From positions 1-31,221 of IMG/VR virus record IMGVR_UViG_3300047498_000040: a DNA stretch of 31,221 nucleotides. One strand, 5' to 3'. The notes beneath the pieces are model-generated. The model saw only the letters and a program-made list of their open reading frames with translations. It was not told the origin of the DNA and did not search any database. A program made the position numbers and the translations under genes. This DNA is from a virus. The stretch's first letter is position 1; each line of letters starts with the position of its first letter. Shown in pieces: positions 3,255 through 30,727 of this stretch.

Positions 3255-3336
3255 ACATTCCCCCTATTTTCCCCACCATTCTACTCTATGGGCAAATTAA
3301 TCCCAAGCTCAAAGAATCTTTTATTCTAAATAAAAG

Positions 3337-3376
3337 TTTACACTTCCCATCATATCCTTTAAAATAAAGTTTACAC
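3337..3376 (+). promoter_or_regulatory. promoter of the tail-fibre operon with duplicated AAGTTTACAC element
   Basis: TTTACA at 3337-3342 and TAAAAT at 3360-3365 are separated by 17 bp, a good sigma70-type promoter. AGTTTACAC occurs twice, at 3335-3343 and 3368-3376, 33 bp apart; the second copy falls at the predicted transcription start. An 8-bp inverted repeat (CTTTTATT / AATAAAAG, 3318-3336) abuts the first copy. The fibre gene ATG follows at 3403 with AAGGAG as its ribosome site. Confidence 0.6.
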
Positions 3377-4789: not shown

Positions 4790-5305
4790 ATGAGCCAATT
4801 TTATACCAACAGTGGTGGAGGCCCGCCACCTCCCGGCACAGTTACAGAACTAGATGGAAATAGCGGAACCGCTACGCCATCTGGAGGTATAATTGACGTA
4901 GTTGGAACGGGCGTAGCAGCAAGCGGCGTGTCTGCGGCTGGCAATATCTACACCATAGGCTCTGGGAATACTCTAACCATCTATGAGACACAAGCTCAGT
5001 TTCTGACTCAATACAATTCCACCAACATCGACTTCGCCCATTCGCCTTATGTGGCTATCCTGACCGATTATTTCATATCTGTTAATACCTCCGGCGGTTC
5101 TGTTGTTATTCAACTTCCTAATAGTCCTACTACTTATCGAATGTTCATAGTTAAAGATAGAACAGGCAATTCAATAGCTAATCCTCTAACTGTAACTACA
5201 GTTGGCGGCGTTGTTTTAATAGATGGATCGGCTACTTATACAATTGAAGATGATTATCAAGCAACTAACTTTGTCTTTAATGGCACAAGCTACGAGGCTT
5301 TCTAA
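4790..5305 (+). CDS. short tail-fibre protein (171 aa)
   Basis: The N-terminal third resembles the repeat unit of the first fibre gene (ELDGNSGTATPSGGIIDVVG compared with SLTGNSGGAISPSAGNINVI). The C-terminal domain (residues about 65-171) is beta-rich: FAHSPYVAILTDYFISVNTS, then QLPNSPTTYRMFIVKD, then a terminal FVFNGTSYEAF. That terminal pattern is widespread at the end of phage tail proteins. The start directly follows the previous stop, and its own stop overlaps the next start (TAATG). Likely one chain of a multi-gene receptor-binding apparatus. Confidence 0.7.
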   Translation: MSQFYTNSGGGPPPPGTVTELDGNSGTATPSGGIIDVVGTGVAASGVSAAGNIYTIGSGNTLTIYETQAQFLTQYNSTNIDFAHSPYVAILTDYFISVNTSGGSVVIQLPNSPTTYRMFIVKDRTGNSIANPLTVTTVGGVVLIDGSATYTIEDDYQATNFVFNGTSYEAF

Positions 5306-5883
5306 TGAGCGTTGGGATTATTTTTGATAATGGCGTGGGACTTACAGCCACAGCCGCTGGGAATTCTGGGGACGTACTTACAAGTCAAGGCAGCGGAAGC
5401 GCTCCTATTTTTGCCCCTGGTGGTGGAGGTGGTGGAGCTTTAACGGCTTTTGGAGCTTATCTATCAGCGACCGCTTCGGGTGTCACGGGCGACGGAACTC
5501 TTTACCCTGTTATTTATGATGGGATTTTTAGAAATGACTCATCGATTTATGACAACACCACAGGACTTCTTACAGCAAACAAGACGGGAATTTGGTATCT
5601 CAATGTGAATATTGCCTATCAGGGCATCTTAGTTACCAATACATATGGACAATTCTTCTTTCAAACGGGTGCGGGCGCTCAGTGGGGATATACTCTTTTT
5701 AATGGCTTTAATTTGGCTGAATCTGGCGATCAGTACATGACTGGATCGGCCCTTGTTCCCTTAACGTCTGGGGACACAATCGGAGTGTTTACGGGATTCG
5801 GTGGCAATGGAACGCCTAACGTCGATATTGCAGGTTCTGCATCTCCTCTTTCTTCATTCTCTGGCTACTTTGTGGGGACATAA
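5305..5883 (+). CDS. fibre protein with C1q/TNF-like head domain (192 aa)
   Basis: A short N-terminus (about 45 aa) ends in a PGGGGGGA hinge. Residues about 48-192 form a jelly-roll domain of C1q/TNF type. Recognisable elements are the start AFGAYLSATASGVTGDG, the strand VIYDGIFRNDSSIYDNTTG, then GIWYLNVNIAYQG, and the closing SGYFVG. Such trimeric domains serve as binding heads on phage fibres and collagen-like proteins. A paralogous domain occurs in the next gene. The gene is coupled on both sides by one-base stop/start overlaps. Confidence 0.7.
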   Translation: MSVGIIFDNGVGLTATAAGNSGDVLTSQGSGSAPIFAPGGGGGGALTAFGAYLSATASGVTGDGTLYPVIYDGIFRNDSSIYDNTTGLLTANKTGIWYLNVNIAYQGILVTNTYGQFFFQTGAGAQWGYTLFNGFNLAESGDQYMTGSALVPLTSGDTIGVFTGFGGNGTPNVDIAGSASPLSSFSGYFVGT

Positions 5884-7133
5884 TGGCATATATCGGTAAA
5901 GCTCCTATCTCTATCTTCTACGGAGGAACGAATCAACAAAATTTGCCGACCAATGGCCAGCTCCTTATTGGGAATAACAATACTTTTACCTTAGGAAATC
6001 TGACCGCTGGGTCTGGCATTAACATCACCAATGCCGCGGGTAGCATCACTGTAGCATCCACGGTATCTCCGCCAGTCTTAACACCTGTATTTCTAGCAAG
6101 GCTGTCATCAACACAAAGCAATGTAACAGGCGATGGCACAGATTATACACCGATTATTTTTGATGCATTAGATGGAAACGTCGGATCAGCCTATGACAAC
6201 ACAACAGGGCTTTTCACTGCTCCATCTACGCAGATTTATGTTTTTAGCTTTGGAATACAGATCGTCAATATAGATCCTGCTCATACTTTATGCAGCTTTA
6301 AGATCGAAACGTCAGCTGGTACAACAGCCTTTGGATTTTATGGCAATCCCTATCCGATAAACAATGCTGGCTATCTCATGATCTCCCAGACGGCGATCTT
6401 GGCTTTAGCCGCAAACGAAACCGTTCAAGTATCCCTTCAGATCTCCAATGGCACAAAAACAATCGACGTATATGGGGACAATTCCGGCTCATACTTCACC
6501 TGGTTCTCTGGATATCTGCTTGCTGGAAATAATGGCGGATCTTCAACTTTAGACTCAGTAGTTGACGGCTCTGGAAATACCGTCGTTCCGACAGGCGGCC
6601 TCATCACCTTGGTCAACGGCAACAATGTATCCAGTCTTAGTGAATCGGCATCCCATATCACATTTAATCTGACCGGGACGACCCAATACCAATTACAAGT
6701 CGGAAGTGCTGCAGGAGCCCTAGCAAGCCTATCAAATGGCTCTGCAGGCCAGATCTTGGTGTCTAACGGTGCTGGGGCCAATCCATCCTTCCAAAGCGTC
6801 CCAACAGTCGTAACATGGAATGCAGTTGCCGGTACCTCTCAGACTCTTGCCGTGCAAAAAGGATATGTAAACCAGAACGCTGGGCTTACTACCTTCACAC
6901 TACCAGCAACGGCCAATTTTGGGGACATCGTTGAGATAGCAGGTATGGGAGCTGGTGGCTGGACGATAGTACAAAATACCAGCCAGAACATCATTGTGGG
7001 CAATCTTACCTCAACAACTACATCGGGATCGGTTTCTTCTACAGCCGCACATGACACAATCCGATTGCTTTGTACTGTGGCGAATACAACATTTATGGCT
7101 CTCGATTGGGCTGGTAACTTGACGGTGGTTTAA
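5883..7133 (+). CDS. fibre protein with internal C1q/TNF-like domain and shuffled modules (416 aa)
   Basis: Residues 1-60 are a shaft-start module (FYGGTNQQNLPTNGQLLIGN, similar to the GGTG...NGVLIGNGT segment common in phage fibres). Residues about 70-215 are a C1q/TNF-like domain (FLARLSSTQSNVTGDGTDY, then YDNTTGLFTAPSTQIYVFSF, then FSGYLLAG). Residues about 222-305 repeat a module also found in the next gene (VDGSGN, VNGNNV, HITFNLTGT, GQILVSNG). The C-terminus is a beta domain ending FMALDWAGNLTVV. The mosaic suggests module exchange between neighbouring fibre genes. Confidence 0.75.
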   Translation: MAYIGKAPISIFYGGTNQQNLPTNGQLLIGNNNTFTLGNLTAGSGINITNAAGSITVASTVSPPVLTPVFLARLSSTQSNVTGDGTDYTPIIFDALDGNVGSAYDNTTGLFTAPSTQIYVFSFGIQIVNIDPAHTLCSFKIETSAGTTAFGFYGNPYPINNAGYLMISQTAILALAANETVQVSLQISNGTKTIDVYGDNSGSYFTWFSGYLLAGNNGGSSTLDSVVDGSGNTVVPTGGLITLVNGNNVSSLSESASHITFNLTGTTQYQLQVGSAAGALASLSNGSAGQILVSNGAGANPSFQSVPTVVTWNAVAGTSQTLAVQKGYVNQNAGLTTFTLPATANFGDIVEIAGMGAGGWTIVQNTSQNIIVGNLTSTTTSGSVSSTAAHDTIRLLCTVANTTFMALDWAGNLTVV

Positions 7134-18145: not shown

Positions 18146-18292
18146 ATGGACAAGATTAAGTGTGAATTAACCCGCGCTGATTTATATAACTTAATTGCAA
18201 CTTACTTTACAAACGAAATAGAAAGCTGTCCCATTAATGCAATAACGTTTGTAGATATATTCTTTCACAAGTACAAGGCTAGCGATGAGTGA
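18146..18292 (+). CDS. small ORF between the terminase genes (48 aa)
   Basis: A 48-aa ORF that fills the gap between the terminase genes and overlaps the large-subunit start by 8 nt. The sequence (MDKIKCELTRADLYNLIATY, then CPINAITFVDIFFHKY) is a plausible small helical protein. There is no good ribosome site and no known family. Retained because it closes an otherwise unexplained 142-bp gap in a very compact genome. Confidence 0.45.
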   Translation: MDKIKCELTRADLYNLIATYFTNEIESCPINAITFVDIFFHKYKASDE

Positions 18293-19790
18293 CCTAGCCC
18301 TAGTTGAGCGTCACCTCGGTGACCCACATTGGCGCCTAAATAATCTTTATACCATTATCGACAAAGACGGGCGTGAAGTGATATTCCGCTTCAATGGGGA
18401 GCAAAGAGATCTCTATAGTAATATATGGTATCGCAACGTCATCCTAAAGGCGCGGCAACTTGGCATCTCAACCTTTATCTGTATATTCTTCCTTGACACG
18501 TGTCTCTTCAAGCCAAGCACCGCTTGCGGTATCATAGCCCATACCAGAGAAGACGCTGAGCACTTGTTCAAGCGCATTAAGTTCGCCTACGATAAGCTGC
18601 CGGATGCAATCAAGTCTCTCCGCTCTGCCGCCGTCGATAGTGCCCGTGAGCTTGTCTTTAATAACCACTCCAGCCTTCGCGTAGGCACGTCGATGCGTAG
18701 TAGCACACTCCAATATCTCCATATCAGTGAGTTTGGCAAGATCTGTGCCCATTTCCCAGATAAGGCGCGCGAGATCGTTACTGGCTCTCTGAATACCTTG
18801 GGAAGCCGCCAATACGCCTTCATCGAATCGACCGCTGAGGGCAAAGAGGGCTTTTTCTATGATATCTGCAAAAAAGCTGAAGCGGATCATTTGTCCAAAC
18901 AACGCCTCACGAGCCTTGATTATCGCTTCCACTTCTTCCCTTGGCACGAATGTCCCGATTATTCGATAGACGATACTATCACAATCCCCGTCGAGATGCA
19001 AGACTATTTCCACAAGCTCGAATCGGACAAGATCTATCTCACCCGGGCGCAAATGGCTTGGTACTACAAAACCGCCCTCATCCAAAAAGAGGACATGAAG
19101 CGCGAATACCCCTCTACCCCGAACGAAGCCTTCGAGTCCGCCATTGAAGGCACATTCTACGCCAAGTGGCTCCGTGACGCCCGTGTGCAAGATCGTATAG
19201 CCAAAGTGCCCTACGACAAGAGCGCGCGTGTCTATGTGGCCTTCGACCCGGGGTACCTCGACTCTTGCGCAATAGTCTTTTGGCAAATGGCTGGCCAAGA
19301 GATTCACCTAATCGACTACTACGAAAACTCCGGCGAAGGCCTAGCCCATTATTTAGGCGTTATCAAGTCGAAGCCCTACATATACGAAGCCTATTTTGGC
19401 CCCCATGACATAGAAAACCACCAATTCTCCACCGGCCTCTCTACAAAAGACGTAGCGGCGTCTCTAGGCGTTTCGCTAGTCACTCTGCCCACCCTTAAAA
19501 TGCTGCTAGAAGACGGGATAGAGGCTGTCCGTAGCCTATTCCCCCGATTCTGGATTGACGAGGAGAAGTGTAGCCGTCTCGTTAGATGCATAGAAAATTA
19601 CAGAAAAGAGTTTGACGTTAATCACGGAATCTACAAAAGTAAGCCAAAACACGACGAGTATTCGCATGGCGCAGATGCGTTAAGATACGCCGCGATAGCG
19701 ATAAAAATGCATATTGACAGCGGCAAGACGTCTATCAATGATGAAGAAGCAGAACGACTCTACAACAAATACAATCCCATCTTCAAGTAA
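18285..19790 (+). CDS. terminase large subunit (ATPase/nuclease)
   Basis: 501 aa. The ATPase half has a Walker-A-like K55-A-R-Q-L-G-I-S-T63, typical of phage terminases lacking the canonical GKS/T. The Walker B segment is LQYLHISEFG with Glu149. The nuclease half starts at VAFDPGYLDS (catalytic Asp about residue 319) and continues with the YFGPHDIENH region (about 370) and HDEYSHGADALRYAA near the C-terminus (about 455), matching the RNase H-like acidic triad. It packages DNA through the portal and cuts concatemers. The length is usual for the family. Neighbours are the small terminase and, 8.8 kb on, the portal. Confidence 0.93.
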   Translation: MSDLALVERHLGDPHWRLNNLYTIIDKDGREVIFRFNGEQRDLYSNIWYRNVILKARQLGISTFICIFFLDTCLFKPSTACGIIAHTREDAEHLFKRIKFAYDKLPDAIKSLRSAAVDSARELVFNNHSSLRVGTSMRSSTLQYLHISEFGKICAHFPDKAREIVTGSLNTLGSRQYAFIESTAEGKEGFFYDICKKAEADHLSKQRLTSLDYRFHFFPWHECPDYSIDDTITIPVEMQDYFHKLESDKIYLTRAQMAWYYKTALIQKEDMKREYPSTPNEAFESAIEGTFYAKWLRDARVQDRIAKVPYDKSARVYVAFDPGYLDSCAIVFWQMAGQEIHLIDYYENSGEGLAHYLGVIKSKPYIYEAYFGPHDIENHQFSTGLSTKDVAASLGVSLVTLPTLKMLLEDGIEAVRSLFPRFWIDEEKCSRLVRCIENYRKEFDVNHGIYKSKPKHDEYSHGADALRYAAIAIKMHIDSGKTSINDEEAERLYNKYNPIFK

Positions 19791-20976: not shown

Positions 20977-21122
20977 GAGGGTCCCGAGTAAAACTACTCC
21001 GCAAGCAATACCATCTAACTGCGGGCGAAGTCTCTTGGCGCGTATTCAAGAGACTCTGCACCCACAAACCAAGCCAAACGCCTAAATCGGATCGCGGTTC
21101 TTCCAGTTGTAGATGTCCGTGA
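20973..21122 (+). CDS. small basic protein (49 aa), convergent overlap with ParB-like gene
   Basis: Starts within the GroES-like stop (ATGA) and runs 49 codons: MRGSRVKLLRKQYHLTAGEV, then WRVFKRLCTHKPSQ and a Ser/Cys end. The start resembles a short basic protein seen in many phages (RVK-x-LRK...TAG...W...YKRLK), so it may be real; the C-terminus looks eroded. It overlaps the 3' end of the oppositely oriented ParB-like gene by 41 nt, consistent with truncation when the ParB/HTH island was inserted. Confidence 0.4.
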   Translation: MRGSRVKLLRKQYHLTAGEVSWRVFKRLCTHKPSQTPKSDRGSSSCRCP

Positions 21123-21807
21123 ACATCAGGATATAGTCATTAGTGTTAACGCAGGGCTTTAAAGACGATATCTTAATAGACAATTTCTTTAAAAAGACGG
21201 ACATATCTAAATCTCTATTTAACAAAAACGCCATTAACCCAACTTTAAACTTGACGCTTTTTGTAAAAATATTATCTGATAATCTATACCTAGAAATGCA
21301 ATCCATTACCTCTTCCATCAACACTAATGCTTCTTTGATCGCTGTTTCTTCGAAATAATCACTAAATACAAAATCACCAGATCTCACTTTATGATAAATT
21401 TTGCCACTGGCTCTAAACATACTAAATAGAGAGTTCATTTTAATATTGTTTTCTTCGCAAAATCTTTTTAATCTAATATATTCTTTATTTCCCTGGTTAC
21501 AATAATACAGTACATAGTCCTCAATGCCCCATCTCTTTTGATTGGCGTTCAAAAGGATGATGTCCTCTGTCTTAGAGTTCTTGTTTACTTGATAATAGAT
21601 GACTACACCTAAGTTTTCCGCGGCCTTTAACCTGTGTTGGCCATCAATGACCCTCATTTCCTCATCCACCAATATAGGCCGCAAAGCCAGCATATTGTTC
21701 GTTTTGATGGAAAACTCGATTCTCTTCAAGTTAAAAGCATCTAAAGTCCTATTGCTCTCGTGCCTCTTAAATATCGAATAATCCGTTGTGCTGTCTATTT
21801 TTTGCAT
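21082..21807 (-). CDS. ParB-like N-terminal domain protein
   Basis: 241 aa. The ParB/Srx-type core is clear: LALRPILVDEEMRVIDGQHR followed by LKAAENLG, with the D55-G-Q-H-R59 box and Ala62. NKNSKTEDIILLNANQKRW and then EDYVLYYCNQGNKEYIRLKR match a family with L-N-x-x-x-K-x-W and D-Y-L/V-x-x-Y-x-x-x-G-N. This is not a full chromosomal ParB (no CTP-box GERRxRA) and there is no ParA beside it. Such proteins in phages act as DNA-binding or nuclease-like regulators. The gene is clearly more AT-rich than the terminase-side genes. AAGGAG precedes the ATG, and it overlaps the HTH gene by 13 nt. Confidence 0.75.
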   Translation of the reverse strand: MQKIDSTTDYSIFKRHESNRTLDAFNLKRIEFSIKTNNMLALRPILVDEEMRVIDGQHRLKAAENLGVVIYYQVNKNSKTEDIILLNANQKRWGIEDYVLYYCNQGNKEYIRLKRFCEENNIKMNSLFSMFRASGKIYHKVRSGDFVFSDYFEETAIKEALVLMEEVMDCISRYRLSDNIFTKSVKFKVGLMAFLLNRDLDMSVFLKKLSIKISSLKPCVNTNDYILMFTDIYNWKNRDPI

Positions 21808-24734: not shown

Positions 24735-24995
24735 ATGCTAGATGTATATGACCGAGATTTCACAACCTTAGTTTTCAATCAGCAATTTATTGTACCGACA
24801 AGCGGTCAATATCCCGACGGTTTACATCGACCAATTCTTTTGGGTCTCACGCCAGATACTGCATCGGCAGATACAGTATGCCCCGATGTGCTTAATGTCT
24901 TGTCGTGGGCTAAGCAGACATCTAACATTTTAACACAGGAGCAGCATTTCCTCCCAGAGCTAAAGCACTGGGTTTCCATGCTGTCAATAGGATGA
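24735..24995 (+). CDS. hypothetical protein (86 aa)
   Basis: Start taken at the ATG with AGAAGG 7 nt upstream; a TTG at 24690 would extend it by 15 residues. The N-terminal half is beta-strand-rich (MLDVYDRDFTTLVFNQQFIV, then SGQYPDGLHRPILLGL). A helical end follows (CPDVLNVLSWAKQTSNILTQ, then ELKHWVSML). Overlaps the next gene by 4 nt. Not recognised. Confidence 0.55.
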   Translation: MLDVYDRDFTTLVFNQQFIVPTSGQYPDGLHRPILLGLTPDTASADTVCPDVLNVLSWAKQTSNILTQEQHFLPELKHWVSMLSIG

Positions 24996-25228
24996 AAAAC
25001 CATGCCCGATTGCAAGCAGAATACGGCTCCTGCGGCAATGTAAGATTTGCAAATCCCGAGCAAGTCAAAATGTACTATGCCGATGGCACAGAAGTCCTCT
25101 GCAAATGCGGAAAGCCCGCTGGAATGGGCTGTATGGGCCTAGAAGCATATTTGGCTTGGTGTGATGAGTGTTCCCCCCTTGGCAAAGGAGCAGATAAATT
25201 CGTATCAATTGATACCAATTCACAATAG
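24992..25228 (+). CDS. small Cys-rich, probably zinc-binding protein (78 aa)
   Basis: Contains C37-x-C39, C47 and C57-D-E-C60 (VLCKCGKPAGMGCMGLEAYL, then AWCDEC), a treble-clef or zinc-ribbon-like layout. The N-terminus (GNVRFANPEQVKMYYADGTE) is a beta hairpin. It is coupled to the upstream gene by ATGA. It is the last plus-strand gene before the convergent collagen-like gene. A 14-bp palindrome (GTATCAATTGATAC, 25202-25215) sits in its last codons. Confidence 0.6.
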   Translation: MKNHARLQAEYGSCGNVRFANPEQVKMYYADGTEVLCKCGKPAGMGCMGLEAYLAWCDECSPLGKGADKFVSIDTNSQ

Positions 25229-25301: not shown

Positions 25302-25328
25302 AAATCAGCTATCCGCCGATTTTAAGAT

Positions 25329-26000
25329 CTAGCCAACTTGCTTGATGTTGATCGAAGCAATCGTGATCGGGAAAACTGATCCCGTGATCGCTGGGTTCAA
25401 GCTAACTGGGGAAACTGATGTGTTTCTCAATTTTAGGACATCCCCAACAGCCATTTTTACAATAGCTTCTGAGCTAGAATGGCAAGCGTCGTCGCCTGGA
25501 GCTTGGGTAAATCCCGAGTAAACCGTTCCAGGGATGAGTATGCCATTGTTCCAGAAACCAAAGGACCAAGATGGTACTGGATCAGGAATAGGAGGAGTAA
25601 TTCTAGCTTGTAACAGCCAACCTATAGAATAAACTCCGGCTCTTAAAAACTTGATCGATCCATCAACTCCCATCAAGCTGAGGTCAAAATCTCCAACTGA
25701 TACCGCATTTTGCGAGTTAAACAATACAGTGTCAGTAGCAGTCGAATAAGGCCCAATTATTAAAGGAACAGACGCATAAACGTTGGCGTAATGGCCGCAG
25801 CAATTATCCCGTCCATGATGTCCATCGCAATCTTTTCCAGGAATACCTTGTAATCCCTGAACTCCCTGCATACCTTGTTGTCCCATTGCACCTTGTGCTC
25901 CAGGAACGCCTTGGATACCTTGTTCACCTTGTAAGCCAGGAACGCCTTGGGGCCCTTGAGCGCACTCACAACAGTGCCGCATAGAATCATCTTTACACAT
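25329..26000 (-). CDS. collagen-like protein with C-terminal beta-sandwich domain (moron candidate)
   Basis: 223 aa. A Cys-rich N-terminus (MCKDDSMRHCCECAQ) leads into about 14 Gly-X-Y triplets (residues 16-57; GPQ-GVP-GLQ-GEQ and so on). A short Cys/His-rich neck (KDCDGHHGRDNCCGHY) follows. The C-terminal domain (about 70-223) looks like the TNF/C1q-like head of BclA-type proteins: IGPYSTATDTVLFNSQNAVS, then FLRAGVYSIGWLLQARITPP, then ASINIKQ. Such trimers are surface fibres for adhesion. It is the only gene on this strand for kilobases, with its own near-consensus promoter and AAGAGG ribosome site, so it may be expressed from a prophage. Confidence 0.8.
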   Translation of the reverse strand: MCKDDSMRHCCECAQGPQGVPGLQGEQGIQGVPGAQGAMGQQGMQGVQGLQGIPGKDCDGHHGRDNCCGHYANVYASVPLIIGPYSTATDTVLFNSQNAVSVGDFDLSLMGVDGSIKFLRAGVYSIGWLLQARITPPIPDPVPSWSFGFWNNGILIPGTVYSGFTQAPGDDACHSSSEAIVKMAVGDVLKLRNTSVSPVSLNPAITGSVFPITIASINIKQVG

Positions 26001-26035
26001 AGAAACCTCTTAAAAATTGGCGGGAGATACTTCTA

Positions 26036-26064
26036 TATATACTATTAAAATATTTACTTGTCAA
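26036..26064 (-). promoter_or_regulatory. near-consensus sigma70 promoter of the collagen-like gene
   Basis: TTGACA (26059-26064), a 17-bp spacer and TATATA (26036-26041): a perfect -35, ideal spacing and a 5/6 -10. It gives a leader of about 30 nt before the ATG at 26000 with AAGAGG. No AAAGTTTACA element is present, unlike the virion promoters. Confidence 0.75.
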
Positions 26065-26079
26065 TTTGAGACGGTCGAC

Positions 26080-26121
26080 TTGATAACAAATGTTGAACAA
26101 GTTAGTATGAGGAAGTTTACA
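26080..26121 (+). promoter_or_regulatory. plus-strand promoter with AAGTTTACA element
   Basis: TTGATA (26080-26085), a 17-bp spacer and TAGTAT (26103-26108). GAAGTTTACA (26112-26121) lies at the predicted start of transcription, as in the fibre promoter. It is back to back with the collagen promoter, 16 bp apart, and drives the gene at 26134. Confidence 0.55.
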
Positions 26122-26133
26122 TGAGGAAAAAGA

Positions 26134-26418
26134 ATGGCTTGGGTGAGATATGCGGAAAGAAAACCTGAAAAAGAAGGCCTCTATCCCGTTGTTATTTTGA
26201 TTACTTATGAGGAAGGTCGCGACGGGGCGCCGTCTTTACATCCTATAAAAAGGGTGGAATATTATACTTGGAAGCAGAAAATGACGCTGGAACAAGATTA
26301 CGTCGATCGCTGCGTTTATAAGAAATGCATGTGTTTTCTAAACGACTATGGCAATGAACTGCCGCCCGCCCAGCTGCTATATTGGTATGAACTGGACGCT
26401 ATTCCAAAGGAAGAATAA
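26134..26418 (+). CDS. small DUF551-like phage protein (94 aa)
   Basis: Begins MAWVRYAERKPEKEGLYPVV and ends with YWYELDAIPKEE. The pattern W-V-x-x-x-x-x-x-P-x-x-G-x-Y-x-V, followed by a strand region and a final W-x-x-L-x-x-(I/L)-P, is like small DUF551-type proteins common in phages, whose function is unknown. The central part has two Cys (VYKKCMCFLND). GGAAAAAG precedes the ATG, and the stop overlaps the next start (TAATG). Confidence 0.6.
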   Translation: MAWVRYAERKPEKEGLYPVVILITYEEGRDGAPSLHPIKRVEYYTWKQKMTLEQDYVDRCVYKKCMCFLNDYGNELPPAQLLYWYELDAIPKEE

Positions 26419-28520: not shown

Positions 28521-28526
28521 ATATGC

Positions 28527-28553
28527 TGTAAATTCTAAATTAGAAAGTTTACA
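28527..28553 (+). promoter_or_regulatory. AAAGTTTACA element before the portal gene
   Basis: TGTAAATTCT, then AAATT, then AGAAAGTTTACA: an imperfect inverted repeat whose right half matches the fibre and post-portal elements. TAAATT (28536-28541) could be a -10 box, but no -35 is visible at the right distance. It lies 27 bp before the portal ATG, which has AAGGA as ribosome site. Confidence 0.5.
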
Positions 28554-28579: not shown

Positions 28580-30655
28580 ATGTCGAGCCCCATGTCAGAT
28601 TATTCGTATTCTCAAGACGCCAAAGATTACCTTTCGGATTACAAGAAAAAGATCAAATCTGACCCCCGATTAGAGTTCCACCAAGACCTCGTACAAGACT
28701 TTGGCGAGTCATACGAAAGGGCGTATCAACTTTGGAACACATACTATGCCGAAGCCTATAAAGATCTCAGCTACTACTTGGGTAACCAATGGTCGCTCGA
28801 GGAGCTTAGTTATCTTAACAATCAAAGACGTTCATCGTTTACTTACAACAAAATCTTTAGGCTCATCAATCTTGTGCTTGGCAGGTACTCCGATACCATG
28901 CGTGGGTATAATGTTGCGCCTATTGAGAACTCATCTGACCTCACTGCCGAGATTCAAACAGATGCTCTCCAATACGTCATGCAGTATGGCTCTGGGCACG
29001 ACATCGTCAAGAAAGCGGTCAAAGGCTCCCTTACAACGGGGATGGCTTTTGTGTCGCCATGGATGGACTACAGAGACGATCCCGTCTCAGGCGATATCAA
29101 GTTCCATCTCGACGAATGGAACGCCGTCATACTTGATCCGTTTCTTACAAAGAAAGATCTATCTGATTGCTCATTCATTGCTCGGCGCAAATTCCTTAGC
29201 CGTACGGAGGTAATTTCCCTACTACCAGAGAAACAAGCCGAAATCGAAGCTTTACCTTGGGGCAGCCGGGACGACAAATTTACTTACATGCCCTATGCCC
29301 GGCAATGGGGAATGCAGAAGCTTCTCAACTATAATGAATACTGGCGCACCAAATGGGAAACCAAAAGCGTTCTCGTCGATATGGAGACTGGAGAAACACG
29401 GCAGTGGGACGGCGATCGCAAGCGTTTATTCATCCTTAGAAAGATGTTCCCGCAGTTGGAAGTAATTAAAAAGCCTGTTCGATCCGTTGAATTAGGCATC
29501 ATTGTTGAAGGACAATTATTATATTATGGAAAAGATCCTGGCGGACTTAATGACTATCCCTTTGTGCCTTACTTTGCTGTGTTTGAGCCATCGTATGATC
29601 TTTATACCTGGAAAATCCAGTCCTTAGTACGCTTCTTACGCGATCCGCAGACCGAAATCAACAAGAGACGCTCCAAGAAAGTCGATATCATCGATAACCA
29701 GCTCAATTCTGGATGGATCGCCAAGACAAACAGCGTCACGAATCCCTCATCGATGTATAAATCGGGTCAAGGGCAAGTTATTTGGCTAAAGCCAGAGGCC
29801 CAAATGACCGACGTTCAGCGCATCCCTTCAGCCAATATCGATGGATCGCAATTCCAGCTGGAAGCGGAGTTCGAGAAAGATATGTTCGAGATCTTAGGCC
29901 TAAGCCAAGAGAACGTCGGCATGTCGGAAAACGAGAAGATCGAGACGGCTGGCATCCTGGCCAAATCACGTCAGATGGCCGGCTGGATTCCAATGCAGCA
30001 CATCTTTGATGGCATCTGGGAGTCTCAGAAATTGCTAGGCGAAAAGTGCCTTAAATTGATCCAAAACAACTACACGCCAGAGAAAATCAAGTTAATCACC
30101 AAGAAAGACCCGACGCCAGAGTTCTATTCCAAATCATTTGGGCGCTATAACGTGGTGGTCGAAGAAGGCATTCTTACCGATACCCAGCGCCAGAGCCAAT
30201 TCGTACAGCTAGTGGCTCTCAAGCAGATGGGCATCCTTCCCCCAGAAGGAGACGCGCTCATCATCGAGAACTCAAATCTACACGGCAAAAAAGACCTCCA
30301 TGCCGTCGTCCAACAGAAAAACCAAGCAGAATCCCAAGCGCAGCAACAGTGGATGCAGATGCAGATGCAAAACCAAGCTACTGTCACTGAGGGAATCCAG
30401 TCCAAAGCCGAATCTGATAGGGCTCTGGCAGCTGAGCGCCTTAATAAGGTTGGCCTCGATGCAGCCCTTAATATGGAGCGTATGTCCAGGGCAGAGGAAG
30501 AGAGGACCGCCGGCGCTCTTAACCTCATCAAAGCGCTTAAAGAGCTCGATACGATGGATCTCGACAACCTGCAAAGGAAGATCGATCTCATTAGGACTAT
30601 CGAGGGGAAGAACGACGAGAAAGAGCCTAAATCCCCAGTGAAGAAATCGGCCTAA
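28580..30655 (+). CDS. portal protein (P22 type)
   Basis: 691 aa, within the size range of P22-like portals (about 700). The N-terminal part (residues about 45-110) has the usual YYLGNQW, then SFTYNKIFRLINLVLGRYSD and MRGYNVAP. The central wing has FHLDEWNAVILDPFLTKKDL. The stem/crown region contains LVRFLRDPQTEINKRRSKKV and DNQLNSGW, then FEKDMFEILGLSQENVGMSE. The Gln-rich C-terminus (about 575-691) is a long helix corresponding to the barrel. Twelve copies form the DNA channel that binds terminase. An AAAGTTTACA element lies just upstream. Confidence 0.92.
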   Translation: MSSPMSDYSYSQDAKDYLSDYKKKIKSDPRLEFHQDLVQDFGESYERAYQLWNTYYAEAYKDLSYYLGNQWSLEELSYLNNQRRSSFTYNKIFRLINLVLGRYSDTMRGYNVAPIENSSDLTAEIQTDALQYVMQYGSGHDIVKKAVKGSLTTGMAFVSPWMDYRDDPVSGDIKFHLDEWNAVILDPFLTKKDLSDCSFIARRKFLSRTEVISLLPEKQAEIEALPWGSRDDKFTYMPYARQWGMQKLLNYNEYWRTKWETKSVLVDMETGETRQWDGDRKRLFILRKMFPQLEVIKKPVRSVELGIIVEGQLLYYGKDPGGLNDYPFVPYFAVFEPSYDLYTWKIQSLVRFLRDPQTEINKRRSKKVDIIDNQLNSGWIAKTNSVTNPSSMYKSGQGQVIWLKPEAQMTDVQRIPSANIDGSQFQLEAEFEKDMFEILGLSQENVGMSENEKIETAGILAKSRQMAGWIPMQHIFDGIWESQKLLGEKCLKLIQNNYTPEKIKLITKKDPTPEFYSKSFGRYNVVVEEGILTDTQRQSQFVQLVALKQMGILPPEGDALIIENSNLHGKKDLHAVVQQKNQAESQAQQQWMQMQMQNQATVTEGIQSKAESDRALAAERLNKVGLDAALNMERMSRAEEERTAGALNLIKALKELDTMDLDNLQRKIDLIRTIEGKNDEKEPKSPVKKSA

Positions 30656-30696: not shown

Positions 30697-30727
30697 CGTG
30701 TAAACTTTGAATTAGAAAGTTTACACG
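30697..30727 (+). promoter_or_regulatory. perfect 12-bp inverted repeat containing AAAGTTTACA
   Basis: CGTGTAAACTTT (30697-30708), 7-bp spacer GAATTAG, AAAGTTTACACG (30716-30727). It is the most symmetric copy of the element seen upstream of the fibre and portal genes. It lies between the portal stop and the 75-aa gene. It has no T run and an AT-rich stem, so it is not a terminator; operator or phage-specific promoter is more likely. Confidence 0.6.

Follow-up and report, generated by a model that had tools for sequence, protein, structure and literature searches.

A collagen-like gene exchanged among phages with P22-like portals is a well-supported moron and probably encodes a dispensable virion spike

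The collagen-like gene of a 31,221-base virus record in IMG/VR (the window, that is, the whole stretch of DNA analysed here) is well supported as a moron, and we consider it somewhat probable (about 0.58) that it represents a single-gene cassette roaming among phages with P22-like portals and coding for a dispensable spike on the virion surface. The earlier note on this DNA had already proposed a moron, and comparison with relatives bears this out, in that the gene is patchily distributed, occupies a new location in each genome, has gaps on both sides and usually a hairpin behind it, and follows a phylogeny decoupled from that of the phage backbone. Since morons were originally described as complete transcription units appended to phage genomes (PMC6316719), the term fits. 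The relevant features of the window are as follows.

5305-5883 and 5883-7133, plus strand: two C1q-headed tail-type proteins (PF00386)
18285-19790, plus strand: terminase large subunit, a context gene
25302-25322, minus strand: 8-bp hairpin directly past the stop codon of the collagen gene
25329-26000, minus strand: collagen-like putative spike gene, 223 aa, with a Cys-rich N-terminal connector, 14 Gly-X-Y triplets and a predicted BclA/TNF/C1q-like head
25332-25790, minus strand: C-terminal head, residues 71-223, a predicted TNF/C1q jelly roll nearest to F-BclA and BclA heads
25830-25955, minus strand: collagen stalk, 14 Gly-X-Y triplets, residues 16-57
25956-26000, minus strand: codons 1-15 (MCKDDSMRHCCECAQ), N-terminal connector containing Cys2 and the CC motif
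26005-26010, minus strand: ribosome-binding site AAGAGG, 5 nt before the ATG of the collagen gene
26036-26064, minus strand: sigma-70-like promoter TTGACA-17-TATATA, upstream of the collagen gene
28580-30655, plus strand: P22-like portal protein (PF16510, 1.3e-79), the backbone marker

The reading frame (25329-26000, minus strand) starts with ATG and codes for 223 residues. The 14 Gly-X-Y triplets described before were counted exactly and run uninterrupted through residues 16-57, and the match of the protein to the Pfam collagen family (PF01391, 5.5e-8) passes the family cut-off. The TTGACA-17-TATATA promoter is indeed present at 26064..26036 on the minus strand, with 0.02 such sites expected by chance in the window (two matches were a single site counted under two spacings), and AAGAGG stands 5 nt from the ATG as claimed; sites agreeing with the sigma-70 consensus at 10 or more of 12 positions are not rare, numbering 12 in the window over both strands. 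The hairpin after the stop codon is weak in the window, has no clear T-run and folds no better than shuffles. The statement that the gene opposes all its neighbours is right for both flanking genes of the window (24992-25228 and 26134-26418, both on the plus strand) but does not hold generally, the orientation opposite to the portal being found in 2 of 25 near-complete genomes and a few partial contigs. Likewise, the 26-kb genes do have a divergent sigma-70-like site at 26080 (TTGATA-17-TAGTAT), back to back with the gene as the earlier note had it, but its score of 9/12 is close to chance.

Among the relatives, 27 genomes present 27 distinct pairs of flanking gene families around the collagen gene, and the median gaps at the gene (110 nt on the 5′ side and 49 nt on the 3′ side) exceed the 6 nt that is the genome-wide median between same-strand genes. 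Relatives usually have a hairpin behind the stop, and a strong one, the median fold there being -12.2 kcal/mol versus -4.0 kcal/mol behind their remaining genes (p 9e-10). Between distant phages, DNA homology at this locus is confined to the gene with tens of flanking bases and reaches no further than about 120 bases upstream: the match between L123 and L121 begins 119 nt upstream and ends 3 nt past the stop, and that between L102 and L112 begins 83 nt upstream and ends about 67 nt past it. The best promoter sites upstream of the gene in the relatives seldom beat shuffles in a scan that demanded T at position six of the -10 element, a scan outside which the TATATA of the window falls. The candidate for a conserved upstream promoter motif occurred in 3 of 42 homologues against 0.6 expected, which is not convincing, and judging from these upstream regions the promoter does not appear to be a conserved feature across relatives. 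Several copies of the gene adjoin multi-copy genes of tail-fibre type, and no gene family that all collagen-positive genomes share, and they alone, emerged as a possible docking partner, which speaks against the virion reading. In L003, a tRNA-Asn gene (6786-6859) lies immediately downstream of the collagen gene.

The head has an evolutionary history of its own. Over 299 genome pairs, head identity bears no relation to portal identity (Spearman 0.04), and the corresponding values are 0.65 for the major capsid (the family annotated as major head protein) and 0.53 for the terminase; other core families likewise correlate with the portal, and the small family fam 10 gives a rho of 0.06 with the portal, but its identities are low throughout. 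Where portals are less than 30% identical, heads are 65%, terminases 16% and major capsid proteins 31% identical. The extremes run in both directions, from L123 and L121 with portals 29% and heads 95% identical to L123 and L109 with portals 80% and heads 47% identical, and in AU tests each of four portal clades was rejected as a head clade (p 1.6e-61, 8e-4, 2.5e-4 and 0.03). The GC content of the head tracks that of its own phage genome (r 0.81), with no sign of recent import by base composition; the gene has therefore long been resident in phages, and its transfers do not represent recent imports.

When IMG/VR was scanned with the head, 48 contigs of uncultured phages were recovered, and a portal of the broad P22-like family is encoded in 45 of the 49 collagen-positive records, window included. 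The head had no match at E <= 1 among INPHARED phages, and neither a head match nor a carrier-type portal was found in the plasmids of PLSDB; a scan of genome contigs with the whole protein gave matches to collagen repeats alone and was set aside. Carriage is sporadic even among close relatives, with the gene present in 3 of the 33 records that have the portals nearest to the query alignment (58-82% identity), some of the negatives being short fragments. The two phages nearest to the window, near-identical to each other, about 40 kb long and with a portal 82% identical, are without it. With negatives limited to near-complete records, presence and absence amount to 9 changes, whether gains or losses, on a 76-row portal tree. 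Broken copies also occur, one frameshifted (L130) and two retaining just the last third of the head (L134 and L135), and the gene is single-copy in carrier genomes. Together, these genome comparisons indicate an accessory, single-copy gene that is exchanged between lineages and sometimes decays. A clean empty site was sought in the nearest phage, L136, and rejected, the region being too diverged; where the window has the collagen gene, L136 (6770-7915), as also L168, has a C1q-headed tail-type gene instead.

The homologues share three parts, namely an N-terminal connector, a collagen stalk and a head of about 155 residues. The connector carries the pattern MC[K/D][D/E]...CC, with CC before the stalk in 41 of 42 homologues and Cys2 in 40 of 42, the latter count being somewhat biased by a start-picking script that favoured Met followed by Cys; good ribosome sites lie upstream of most of the Met-Cys starts chosen. 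Stalk length ranges from 11 to 42 triplets and is mostly 14-15. No signal peptide, membrane segment or hydrophobic N-terminus was found in the 42 homologues by N-terminal hydropathy, no LPXTG was seen at the C-terminus, and five homologues gave no match to the exosporium leader (TIGR03720, NCBIfam, E <= 1).

The TNF/C1q-like head that had been claimed is upheld by structure prediction. An AlphaFold2 model from an alignment of 39 sequences (pLDDT 91.6), compared with the PDB by Foldseek and VIA-align, matched best the BclA-type spore heads, with F-BclA at Z 18.8 (rmsd 1.9 over 132, 24% identity) followed by BclA at Z 17 and BxpB/ExsF at Z about 16.6, while TNF and C1q proteins gave Z 14-16. The head is thus predicted to adopt a BclA-type TNF/C1q-like fold. 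Pfam BclA_C (PF18573) weakly matches the heads of 34 of 39 relatives (best 1.8e-5), the window's own head not being among them. The PDB sequence match 8zxl, named 'spindlefibril', was rejected, as collagen-type repeats account for it and no single stretch passed by itself. In L115 (7961-9121) and L122 (8265-9179), an in-frame Ala-rich insert of roughly 90-100 residues splits the head, in both cases in the identical loop, after NAVSG or NEVSG.

Heads of the same superfamily also occur in the C1q-headed tail proteins (PF00386) of the same genomes, from which the spike differs in that those proteins are multi-copy, belong to the tail module, have no collagen and show no significant profile match, in the window's two cases, to the collagen-gene head. 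The tail-type family to which 5305-5883 and 5883-7133 belong counts 132 members in 37 genomes, several per genome, and some members carry C1q heads; such multiplicity is unusual.

By analogy with known phages, the collagen gene most likely encodes a dispensable virion spike comparable with gp12 of SPP1. SPP1 gene 12 codes for a collagen-like, non-essential capsid accessory protein and is called a moron by its authors (PMC6316719), and decoration proteins of its kind are thought to help adhesion (PMC7602432). The two share the collagen-like nature, a place in the packaging/head gene region and the moron class. In contrast, gp12 has 64 aa, without room for a C1q head, and its gene sits within the late block, with the scaffold gene on one side and the capsid gene on the other, whereas the window's family is a roaming cassette. 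We infer a location on the virion rather than on the host surface because the protein lacks a hydrophobic N-terminus, because tail-fibre-type genes are often among its neighbours and because SPP1 gp12 offers a precedent. In the mechanism that we favour, a self-contained cassette with its own promoter and ribosome site, and usually a hairpin terminator, would be inserted at unrelated positions; its protein would trimerise, the N-terminal connector (codons 1-15), likely a docking segment, would anchor it as a dispensable fibre to the surface of the virion, and the head could hold the particle to a cell, to another particle or to environmental glycans, as proposed for SPP1 gp12 and phi29 gp8.5.

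The exchange links phages with capsid proteins about 31% identical, which would be odd for a protein that docks on the capsid, save where the dock tolerates much variation or is supplied by the host. One tentative extension, which we think rather unlikely to be right, is a universal spike whose Cys connector docks on a conserved capsid feature or on a host appendage common to unrelated phages; if so, the gene would be freely traded while the rest of the virion diverges. Phage proteins with collagen repeats are commonly classed as tail fibres, evolving together with the tail to which they belong, but here a putative spike with a spore-type head is traded at new places between phages with heads about 65% and portals below 30% identical. 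If the spike belongs to the virion, its dock must be common to very different particles or belong to the host, and the identity of that dock would tell how accessory virion spikes spread. The family is also a source of compact BclA/C1q-type heads on natural stalks of 11 to 42 triplets.

An ordinary core tail fibre that merely shifts place, like the collagen-like side-tail fibres of EHEC prophages, would account for the PHROGs matches, which are to tail-fibre families, and for the copies that adjoin tail-fibre-type genes. We regard it as unlikely, given that those matches cover little outside the collagen repeat, that Pfam finds no phage-fibre N- or C-domains, that most phages with the closest portals lack the gene, and that gaps and a hairpin of its own set it apart as a separate unit. 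The collagen-like proteins EPclA-D of EHEC prophages are likewise phage-encoded and have a trimeric collagen stalk and end domains (PMC3368898), and to that extent they resemble the spike, but they differ in having phage-fibre N/C domains and coiled coils, in being described as side-tail proteins and in having no BclA-type head. Ranked below it in probability is a lysogenic-conversion factor, which the prophage would produce from the gene's own promoter and which, exposed at the surface of the host, would alter adhesion or block superinfection. An autonomous transcription unit whose promoter is close to consensus in the window, the moron-type distribution and the existence of collagen-like adhesins on cells speak for such a factor, although the Lcl and Scl models match just the collagen part. 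Nevertheless, the suggestion of the earlier note that the gene is transcribed from a prophage and changes the host surface was not borne out. None of the 42 homologues has a signal peptide or membrane segment and no LPXTG was seen; a tyrosine integrase is absent from the window, which is possibly incomplete, and present in 3 of 30 collagen-positive records, in a screen that covered integrases of the tyrosine type. Nor was such a prophage found in about 1,190 sampled genomes, surveyed without a positive control: no carrier-type portal was detected at E <= 1e-60 in 398 genomes from the phylum of a gammaproteobacterial seed, 199 from that of a planctomycete seed and 296 from that of a Cyclobacterium seed, or at E <= 1e-40 in 299 Bacillota genomes, the phylum of a Paenibacillus seed. 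The search for host homologues, which had been recommended as a check, gave no head homologues in 299 Pseudomonadota-type genomes and remote, partial matches (E about 1e-7) in Bacillota.

The spore-surface heads, being the best structural matches, raise another reading, the least probable of those considered here, in which the phage protein imitates, through its CC connector and BclA head, the tip fibrillum of an endospore appendage (L-BclA, AGE80398.1). The protein could then attach to a host appendage or spore layer that is built in the cytoplasm, so that a signal peptide would be unneeded, although this too we consider improbable. Collagen proteins with a CC connector and a C1q head form the tips of spore appendages (PMC11952670), and L-BclA shares with the phage protein the Cys-rich CC N-terminus, collagen, the C1q head and the want of an exosporium leader (PMC11952670); a host-encoded dock would, moreover, account for the free exchange among phages. 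Against it, the carrier-type portal is absent from the 299 Bacillota genomes, and Bacillota proteins are just remotely similar. More broadly, the BclA, F-BclA and L-BclA spore fibrils resemble the phage spike in a collagen stalk of variable length and the same predicted head fold, with the CC connector shared by the L-BclA type (PMC11952670), whereas the phage gene has 24% head identity to F-BclA and no exosporium leader, and the window's head falls short of PF18573 although most relatives weakly match it.

The absence of the element AAAGTTTACA from the collagen gene had been taken as a hint of transcription in the prophage. With 5 exact copies in the window versus 0.07 expected, AAAGTTTACA is a genuine repeated element. 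No exact copy lies on the collagen gene's strand within the window, and to that extent the observation stands; however, a one-mismatch copy occurs at 26112-26121 (plus strand), in the divergent intergenic region shared with the collagen gene, and the element does not separate this gene from virion genes, preceding just a few units in the window. Upstream of the portal AAAGTTTACA runs into TACAATGGGG, and at the equivalent site close relatives have TACAATGGGG, TATACTGGGG or TATAATGAGG; because the portal copy merges in this way and relatives vary there, AAAGTTTACA resembles the -10 portion of a phage promoter. In L090, the collagen gene is preceded by TACAATGAGG, i.e., the TACAATGRGG motif also found in the portal promoter of the window. 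Since the element is promoter-like, since it precedes few units and since L090 has this motif, the missing AAAGTTTACA says little and is no demonstration of host-type or lysogenic expression.

Repeats of AAAGTTTACA lie at 30699-30725, 28522-28553 and 3316-3376 of the window, and the copies at 30699 and 30716 form a dyad, GTGTAAACTTTGAATTAGAAAGTTTACAC. This dyad, together with the portal copy that merges with TACAATGGGG, is a candidate operator/promoter of the window phage. The window also encodes a ParB-like partition protein (21082-21807, minus strand), with a relative in L002, which might hint at plasmid-like maintenance.
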